64,000 bases of DNA from Caldifarciminota bacterium (lineage in GTDB: Bacteria > Hydrothermota > Hydrothermia > LBFQ01 > DSFT01), in contig JANXBH010000002.1 of assembly GCA_025060695.1 (NCBI GenBank), forward strand, positions 1 to 64,000. Direction: 5' to 3'. A program made the translations under genes and the position numbers. The notes beneath the pieces are model-generated. The model worked only from the letters and a program-made list of their open reading frames with translations, did not search any database and was not told the DNA's origin. Below are positions 2,264 to 4,651 of the stretch, in pieces. Each line of letters starts with the position of its first letter. Position 1 is the stretch's first letter.

Positions 2264-2689
2264 ATGAATGACGAAAAAGAAAAAAGAGTAAAAGACATAG
2301 TCAATAGTCTTGGTTTGTATATATCAAAAGAAACAGGCATACTTAAGGGTGATTATTCTAATAAGGAAATAGGTATTTTAGGTTCATATCAAACCGATAT
2401 ATTGGATACAGCAAAAAGGTATAAAGAAGAAAAAATAAGTAGAAATGAAGCAAAAGAAGAAATTCACGCATCTACAGTAAAAGCCATAATAGCACCAATA
2501 GTTGAAGTAGGCTATAATGTTTTAGCAGTAGGGATATCAAAACTCCTTAGTCGGCCCGTTCCACTACTTGCACCAGTAGTAAATACCACTTTGATGGTAT
2601 TAAGAAAACCAATTGTAGAAACAATTACAAATATAGTAACAGGTGTTGTACAAAAGGTTAAAAATTTTTTACTAAAGCTATTTTCATAA
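2264..2689 (+). CDS. Small protein with amphipathic/hydrophobic C-terminal half, unknown
   Basis: 141 residues preceded by AAAGGAG, 9 bases before the ATG. The first ~75 residues are charged and helical. The remainder (AIIAPIVEVGYNVLAVGISKLL, then a proline-rich stretch and TNIVTGVVQKVKNFLLKLF) is hydrophobic to amphipathic and looks membrane-seeking, without a clear classical transmembrane helix. It is the last gene of the AAA ATPase cassette. No family is recognised. A membrane-associated partner of the ATPase is possible but unproven. Confidence 0.65.
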   Translation: MNDEKEKRVKDIVNSLGLYISKETGILKGDYSNKEIGILGSYQTDILDTAKRYKEEKISRNEAKEEIHASTVKAIIAPIVEVGYNVLAVGISKLLSRPVPLLAPVVNTTLMVLRKPIVETITNIVTGVVQKVKNFLLKLFS

Positions 2690-2784
2690 CTGAAATTTAA
2701 AATAGAAAATACGGATGCATATAATTCCCAGACAGAGCTAAATACAAGCAATTACGATGTATTTAGATTTTAAACTTCATGCTT

Positions 2785-2790
2785 TAAAAT
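2785..2790 (+). promoter_or_regulatory. TAAAAT -10 element before reverse gyrase remnant
   Basis: CTTTAAAATTC with the core ending 10 bases before ATG 2801, the same arrangement as at intact genes in the window. It suggests the promoter of the decayed gene has outlived the coding sequence. Confidence 0.5.
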
Positions 2791-2800
2791 TCTGCTTGTC

Positions 2801-4318
2801 ATGATTGAAAATTCAGTAAAAGTTTCTAAGTTAGTAGACTTTTTATAGGTGTAAAAGTGAGAGGAAAAATATGAAAAGGTGTTAGAATATTATTCAATGC
2901 TAAAATCTCTCTAATAAAAGAAGAATATTGTAAGCACTTAGGAAAACATGGAGAATTAAGTAAAGTTTGTCAGATGGAAGAAGAATTATAAAAATGAGGG
3001 AAAGAATTTGAAAGATTTTTTAAATCAAAACCATGGAGTTTACAACTTGGATAGGCAAAGAGGGTTCTTTTGGGAAATTCATTTGTTCTTCTTGCACCAA
3101 CAGGAGTAGGTAAAACTTCCTTTGGAATTTCTATAGCAAGTTTTAAAAGGAGATTTTATATTTTTCAGAAGAATCACAAAAGCAAAAGGAAATAAAAAAA
3201 GAAAGACTAAAAAGGAGACTTTAAAGTCCTTGTAAGCACTTCAATGTTTCTTTATAAAAACTAAGGAAAAGGGGAACTTGTAGTTTCTTCCGCCTTTTTA
3301 TTTAAGAAATGTTATAGATTTATACGAAGATATAGATAAAAAGCCAATTGAAGAACGGATTAAGAATTTAGGAAAAGGTGGACTTCTTTTTATATCTTCA
3401 AAAAAGTCAATCGGAAGAGGATGGATCAGATGATAGTTTCAGATGCAACTGGATATTTACAGGCAAGTGGAAGAACCTCTCGTATGTATGCAGGTGGATT
3501 AAGTAAAGGTTTAAGTATTGTTCTTGTTGATGAAAGGAGAGCATTTAAGCATTTAATAAAAAAAGTAAATAAGAATATAGAAGGAAGTATTAAAACCTGT
3601 ATTAATAATTGTAGAATCTCCAAATAAAGCAAAAACTATAGCAAACTTCTTCGTAAAGGCTATAAAAAGGAAATTTGGAGAACACAAGGTTTTAGAAACT
3701 TTCGCAGAAGATAAATATATTATGATTACAGCAAGCTTAGGGCATATATTGGATTTAAATAAGGAAGAATGGAAATATTGTGCCAGTATATATGGGATAT
3801 TGCACAATTAGTAAGACCATATAATTCTAACATAAGTATAATAGAATTTCATGAAGTAACAAAAAAAGCAATTTTAAGGGCTATTAAAGAAAAAAGAAAT
3901 ATTGATTTAAATTTAGTAAAGGGTAGGCTTTCCGCAGGAAGAGTTCAAACTCCTTTTCTTGGTTGGATAATACAAGTAGTTTCATTTACTATAGATGAAA
4001 AAGGAAGGTTTAAGATAGATTACTCTTAGAAGAGAAAATATAAGTTCCTTTACCACCTTTTAGAACTGATACTATGCTTAAGTCCGCAAACGATTTATAT
4101 CATTGGTCTCTTCCTAAAAGAACTAACTCTATTAGGGTATCTGATTTATATTTTAGAAGAATTAAAATCAAAAGAGCATCTTTTACTCTATGAGATGATA
4201 TTTAAAAGATTTATAGCAAGTCAAATGAGAGAGTTAAAGCTAAAAATAAAGAATTAGAAGTTCCTATAAAAATATTGCAAAATGGAAAGGTTTATTCTTT
4301 ATACCTTAAAATTTAAAA
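2801..4318 (+). pseudogene. rgy: Reverse gyrase, degraded pseudogene
   Basis: No single frame is open, but consecutive fragments match reverse gyrase in the right order. They are: a cysteine-containing start (EEYCKHLGKHGEL, ~2925); the helicase Q/Walker A region (KPWSLQLG, then VLLAPTGVGKTSFG, ~3035-3129); LVSTSMFL (~3237); LQASGRTSRMYAGGLSKGL (~3448-3510), the hallmark of the second helicase domain; TOPRIM IIVESPNKAKTIANFF (~3603-3650) with ITASLGHILDL (~3724); and topoisomerase [15 protein letters not shown] and [13 protein letters not shown] (~3848-3966). Later come RTNSIRVSD (~4120), where the catalytic Tyr-x-Arg-Thr-Asp motif has lost Tyr and Asp, and YEMIFKRFIASQMREL (~4190). Frameshifts, stops and deletions have removed over half of the usual ~1100-1200 codons. 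The 5' limit is inferred from the promoter at 2785. Confidence 0.9.
4307..4312 (+). promoter_or_regulatory. TAAAAT -10 element, leaderless start at 4319
   Basis: CCTTAAAATT ends 6 bases before ATG 4319. It lies inside the tail of the reverse gyrase remnant. Confidence 0.55.
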
Positions 4319-4651
4319 ATGAGTATAAATGGGGTTCTTGGGCTTTCTTTAATAGTAATGGACCTTTCTATTAAAATAGTATTGAATCTAAACGAGATGG
4401 ATAGTTATCCAGATTTTGGGCTTTTCTACGTAGGCATAATAAATCTGTTTTTTTATTTAGTAAAGGACCAGTTTGAAAAATCCTCATCAACTATCATCTC
4501 AATACTTCTAATTCTATCAGTTATATATCCTATTTCAAGTATTCTAAAGAACTTCTTAGGTTATAGTATACTAAAAAACCTTGAAGCGGGAGGATTATGG
4601 AGCTTATGTATGGCGATTATAATGATGATACTATCCAAGTTCAAAATTTAA
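4319..4651 (+). CDS. Small integral membrane protein, unknown (weak LspA-like pattern)
   Basis: 110 residues with about three to four hydrophobic segments (GVLGLSLIVMDL, FGLFYVGIINLFFYLV, IISILLILSVIYPI, LWSLCMAIIMMIL). The order D-x-x-x-K in the first helix and a later G-Y/G-G stretch faintly resemble signal peptidase II, but the N/D catalytic signature is absent, so I do not assign it. Translation would start on a leaderless mRNA. Its 3' end overlaps the SdhE-like gene by 55 bases, suggesting co-expression. Confidence 0.55.
   Translation: MSINGVLGLSLIVMDLSIKIVLNLNEMDSYPDFGLFYVGIINLFFYLVKDQFEKSSSTIISILLILSVIYPISSILKNFLGYSILKNLEAGGLWSLCMAIIMMILSKFKI

Follow-up and report, generated by a model that had tools for sequence, protein, structure and literature searches.

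The window examined here, the first 64,000 nucleotides of a contig of 173 kb from a Caldifarciminota bacterium (G000), carries a dead and collinear pseudogene of reverse gyrase (rgy) on the forward strand, at positions 2917–4310. We consider it highly probable that this relic descends from a once functional bacterial rgy of the same type as that of a same-genus relative (G001), most simply by inheritance from their common ancestor, and that the lineage cooled and the gene was inactivated and decayed. Reverse gyrase occurs in all hyperthermophiles. The presence of its gene serves as an indicator of hyperthermophily and has even been applied to the temperature of ancient ancestors, and a large survey of the family mentions possible rgy pseudogenes (PMC6878951). 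Clear intermediates between the presence and the absence of rgy seem to be rarely documented.

The genome under study is a MAG of 1.50 Mb in 77 contigs (94.9% complete, 0.35% contamination), in which 2.9 kb separate the relic from the end of its contig. It was compared with G001, with a same-family relative (G002), and with the class as a whole (40 genomes, namely G000 and 39 others). The proteome statistics draw on approximately 800 kb of G000 sequence and on smaller samples from G001–G003.

Identity and extent of the relic

A profile search of the G000 contigs with TIGR01054 matched the locus in collinear pieces (2908–4263, forward strand; best E = 7.7e-20). The pieces cover profile positions 37–1018 within 1.4 kb and thus place the helicase-like and topoisomerase IA modules in one gene. 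A tblastn search using G001 Rgy as the query recovered pieces in order, with 36–77% identity and E values from 6e-27 to 5e-7 (6e-27, 4e-26, 1e-19, and 1e-16 for the top four). The scores of these pieces were 39–99 bits, compared with a maximum of 24.6 bits in 200 shuffles. Frame-aware alignment of positions 2650–4420 to the same protein covered 478 codons with 61% identity, and nearly all bases from 2917 to about 4310 were used (Table 1). The three analyses bear out the sequence-only reading that first drew attention to the locus, which had recognized ordered helicase, TOPRIM, and topoisomerase IA fragments of reverse gyrase in three frames. Its starting point at 2785 has to be moved, since detectable homology begins at 2917.

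Table 1. The reverse gyrase pseudogene and its recognizable parts (positions in the window)
Feature	Position	Strand	Evidence
Reverse gyrase pseudogene, whole relic	2917..4310	+	Frame-aware alignment to G001 Rgy residues 36–998; TIGR01054 pieces
Helicase module, start of first lobe; Walker A APTGVGKT kept at 3094–3117; in-frame stops in the 2989–3000 stretch and at 3052	2917..3147	+	TIGR01054 E = 1.8e-15; tblastn; alignment
Helicase motif Ib region GDFKVLVSTSMFLYKN, in a shifted frame; motif II (FVDDVDS) downstream deleted	3211..3261	+	Alignment
Helicase piece PPFYLRNV...GKGGLLFISS	3287..3406	+	tblastn E = 1.6e-8, 52% identity
Second helicase lobe, motif VI region SDATGYLQASGRTSR	3430..3567	+	tblastn E = 1.4e-16, 65% identity; TIGR01054 E = 6.6e-18
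TOPRIM N-terminal half LIIVESPNKAKTIANFF; acidic DPDTEGEK half (Rgy 655–691) deleted at ~3791	3581..3763	+	tblastn E = 3.6e-26, 77% identity; alignment
Two topoisomerase IA pieces, the first starting with WD	3793..3978	+	tblastn E = 1e-19; alignment
Topoisomerase IA active-site neighbourhood; catalytic-Tyr segment (17 residues) deleted at ~4118; RTDS changed to RTNS; stop at 4041	4020..4145	+	tblastn E = 5e-7; alignment
Topoisomerase IA pieces KEHLLLYEMIFKRFIASQMR and weak tail; final ~110 codons missing	4162..4310	+	TIGR01054 E = 3.2e-8; alignment

Loss of function

The frame-aware alignment revealed 11 inferred frameshifts, about 22 deletions of 2–75 codons each, and several in-frame stops (those listed in Table 1 and one at 3262). 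Approximately half of the approximately 1,122 rgy codons have been deleted. The TYHRTDS active-site motif has lost its tyrosine, which falls in the 17-residue deletion, and its aspartate, which is replaced by asparagine (D877N, codon at 4125); both losses had already been noticed from the letters alone. The zinc-finger N-terminus, helicase motif II, the acidic TOPRIM motif, and the last ~110 codons are also missing. The best TIGR01054 piece of the relic scores 69 bits, against a curated cut-off of 471.7 bits. A topoisomerase IA without the catalytic tyrosine and the acidic TOPRIM residues is inactive. With segments for catalysis and nucleotide binding deleted and the reading frame interrupted repeatedly, the gene is dead and cannot encode an active reverse gyrase. 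No convincingly broken gene was seen in a comparison of 100 G001 proteins that have good relatives in the G000 sample, and general erosion of the genome was rejected on this ground.

Upstream region and gene order

The earlier reading had also proposed that a TAAAAT element 10 bases before a presumed start codon survives as an intact promoter. The hexamer is common, with 280 copies over both strands of the window (128 kb in all; ~2.2 per kb per strand), and positions 2600–4400 contain 13 promoter-like matches compared with 7.9 (sd 3.0) in shuffled sequences, a modest excess. The presumed ATG at 2802 is located 115 bases upstream of the homology start and out of frame with it, and a search of the sequence before 2917 gave no convincing homology to the Rgy N-terminus. 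The intact promoter was therefore discarded as evidence. Directly upstream of the relic, positions 317–2689 of the window contain an AAA ATPase (PADLOC IetA models, E = 1e-31) and, after it, two small genes whose family matches are weak or absent. No close relative of the ATPase was found in the sister genomes, and the stretch is possibly an accessory or defence cassette.

The gene order of G000 and G001 is scrambled throughout, and hence the neighbours of the intact rgy genes, in G001 (isocitrate dehydrogenase-like, MnmA, and GAPDH-like) and in G002, lie elsewhere in G000 rather than beside the relic. The GAPDH gene of G000 is 51 kb from the relic, and MnmA is on contig C9, with no rgy trace among the surrounding genes. 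With the order so rearranged, these neighbours lend no support to the decay in place that the earlier reading proposed. Throughout the class, the rRNA genes appear to be unlinked: the 16S and 23S genes are on different contigs in G000 (C8:30638-32181 and C7:28679-31583, respectively), and likewise in G001, G002, G003, G012, G022, and G025. The 23S match of G001 is in pieces over 4.3 kb (C183:6119-10419), suggesting one or more introns or inserts, and that of G022 spans 3.9 kb.

Reverse gyrase and other topoisomerases in the class

No second rgy was found in the profile search of the ~95% complete genome. Except for weak matches to ordinary helicases, the sole other TIGR01054 match in G000 is a separate intact TopA frame (664 codons, contig C4). 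GyrA is also intact (803 codons). Since the rgy-bearing relatives carry both TopA and GyrA, these enzymes represent the ancestral complement and not substitutes for reverse gyrase. The rgy genes of G001 (L043:13367-16732, 1,122 codons) and G002 (1,153 codons) are intact. In the class, rgy is present in 24 of the 39 other genomes; among the 16 genomes (of 40, including G000) that have no intact copy, a detectable relic occurs in G000 only. Four near-complete genomes (98–100%) of another genus are split, with rgy present in G018 and G026 and absent in G013 and G023, suggesting a recent gain or loss in that genus too. Such presence and absence within single genera means that the absence of rgy need not be ancient.

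Two further observations concern G001. Its Rgy is nearer to those of other families (G018 and G025) than to that of the same-family G002 (L043 compared with L044, L009, and L016), which suggests transfer or unequal rates. Its GyrA frame (C53:3263-5317) has 1,045 codons, compared with 797–803 in relatives, with profile positions 92 and 93 separated by ~745 additional bases that appear intein-like.

Timing of the loss

Of the codons that do not vary among up to 19 intact Rgy of the phylum, 83 are still present in the relic, and six of these have changed, one to a stop. In the same test, five intact rgy genes showed 0–2 changes each. In the tree, the sister of the relic is G001 Rgy (moderate support, 76), with branch lengths of 0.40 for the relic and 0.23 for G001. 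The excess branch length and the changed invariant codons point to relaxed constraint in the relic. The small number of invariant-codon changes, together with the intact copy in the same genus, led us to conclude that the inactivation is recent relative to the genus split and that most of the divergence from G001 built up while the gene worked. The proposal of a recent loss can thus be retained on these grounds, without the promoter argument originally advanced for it. The loss need not be recent in years, since the 16S identity between G000 and G001 is only 90.3%. The few replacement changes, compared with ~20 indel events, suggest that decay proceeded mainly through deletion rather than point mutation.

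Molecular thermometers

The 16S G+C is 0.569 in G000, 0.612 in G001, and 0.635–0.637 in G002 and G003 (~64% in the family). The G000 value is lower than any of those (0.603–0.652) from the 18 other class genomes whose full-length 16S is plausibly binned; the 16S sequences of G010 and G038 were excluded as doubtful bins, their identity to G000 being well under that of order and class mates. When the 16S changes were polarised using G002 and G003 as outgroups, 65 GC-to-AT and 12 AT-to-GC changes were assigned to the G000 branch, compared with 11 and 14, respectively, on the G001 branch (p = 1.5e-4). The 23S G+C is lower in G000 too, in parallel with the 16S. General drift of base composition does not explain the 16S difference from G001, because the genome G+C of G000 is not the lower one (30.1% vs 27.9% in G001).

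The proteome signal is ambiguous. In 100 orthologs, G000 has a lower CvP than G001 (p = 0.006, or p = 0.001 when only soluble-like proteins are counted), mildly in favour of cooling, but a slightly higher IVYWREL (p = 0.02), which gives no such indication. Absolute Zeldovich temperatures were computed and disbelieved, since low G+C inflates Ile and Tyr, and tRNA G+C was set aside, with at most six shared tRNAs. Among the class genomes with a usable 16S, the rgy-negative ones tend toward a lower 16S G+C, a non-significant trend (p = 0.09). G003 and some other rgy-negative genomes have a 16S G+C as high as the rgy-positive ones, indicating that cooling is not a prerequisite for the loss of rgy. 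Among Thermotogae that became mesophilic, rRNA G+C tracked growth temperature better than amino acid composition did (PMC7734402); across bacteria in general, 16S G+C and temperature are moderately correlated, with R of about 0.4–0.5 (PMC7511790). On the basis of these composition data, the direction of the probable temperature change in the G000 lineage, toward cooling, is well supported, and its size in degrees is not. The suggested move to lower temperature is thus favoured by the polarised rRNA G+C and, mildly, by CvP, and finds no echo in IVYWREL.

Proposed course of events and alternatives

In the simplest reading, a functional rgy would have been inherited from the common ancestor of G000 and G001. 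The lineage may then have moved to cooler conditions, where positive supercoiling and the protection of DNA against heat would no longer have been selected for. The gene would have been inactivated and then eroded, mainly by many short and mid-size deletions, and DNA topology is now presumably handled by gyrase and TopA, both also present in the relatives. The loss looks recent, gene-specific, and tied to cooling, and it yields a testable order of events. Tentatively, and with odds that we put somewhat below even, the lineage may be midway through an ordered exit from hyperthermophily, in which the ribosome cooled first, its rRNA losing G+C along much of the branch, and rgy was inactivated in the last small fraction of that branch, with the proteome lagging behind. 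If this is true, the relic fixes the order of the steps by which hyperthermophily is lost.

Could the fragments be something other than a decayed reverse gyrase gene? A plain topoisomerase I next to an unrelated helicase matches the locus far worse: G000's own TopA scores 38.9 bits and its helicases about 20 bits or less, compared with 98.6 bits for Rgy, and this identity was rejected in agreement with the initial assignment. In a fragmented MAG, with the relic so close to the contig end, errors of assembly or sequencing in an intact rgy might be suspected. Half of the gene is absent, however, through about 22 deletions and with 11 frameshifts, the flanking genes are open, and the 100 orthologs carry no such damage, so that the reading as a pseudogene rather than a sequencing error holds. 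We regard either of these explanations as extremely improbable. It is also very unlikely, though less so, that the dead gene has been replaced by another reverse gyrase, encoded by a second copy or a plasmid, and that the enzyme is still made. About 5% of the MAG is missing, rgy is patchy across the class, and transfer is known for the reverse gyrase family (PMC6878951). The replacement copy envisaged in the sequence-only reading did not turn up among the rgy matches in G000, whose only other topoisomerase IA is the plain TopA that rgy-bearing relatives carry too, and the rRNA cooling signal also speaks against it.

The alternative to which we give the most weight, while still considering it improbable, is loss without cooling: rgy would have become dispensable through other DNA-protecting factors, with growth temperature unchanged and the rRNA shift due to another cause. 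This would fit the IVYWREL values, which are not lower in G000, and the absence of rgy from G003 and G032 at a 16S G+C of 0.637–0.639, although gaps in these MAGs could account for that absence. Thermus thermophilus HB27, moreover, has lost rgy and is still thermophilic (PMC1274311). Against it stand the lower CvP and, above all, the strong one-sided loss of GC from the 16S, which is seen on the G000 branch only and runs against the genome G+C trend. We therefore prefer decay of rgy in a cooled lineage.

Comparison with known systems

The closest known counterpart of the relic in sequence is the bacterial Rgy of G001, which belongs to the same family (TIGR01054), shows 63% identity over the aligned codons, and is its sister in the tree; the G001 copy differs in being intact. 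Among cooled Thermotogae, Tepiditoga spiralis and Mesotoga are comparable to G000: after the move to mesophily, 16S G+C was a better guide to growth temperature than amino acid composition or genome G+C; the paper describing them does not mention reverse gyrase or pseudogenes (PMC7734402). The nearest parallel in gene fate is Thermus thermophilus, in which the megaplasmid of strain HB27 carries an rgy pseudogene and the gene is intact in HB8, a situation read as the decay of a gene that the common ancestor had possessed (PMC1274311). In both cases rgy has decayed in one genome and is intact in a close relative. The HB27 gene is reported as truncated, on a megaplasmid, and in a lineage that is still thermophilic, whereas that of G000 is broken by many deletions, on a 173 kb contig, and in an uncultured lineage whose rRNA carries a cooling signal. 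An rgy pseudogene with an intact sister copy is thus already known from Thermus thermophilus; what the G000 relic adds is an independent molecular thermometer that has shifted on the same branch.
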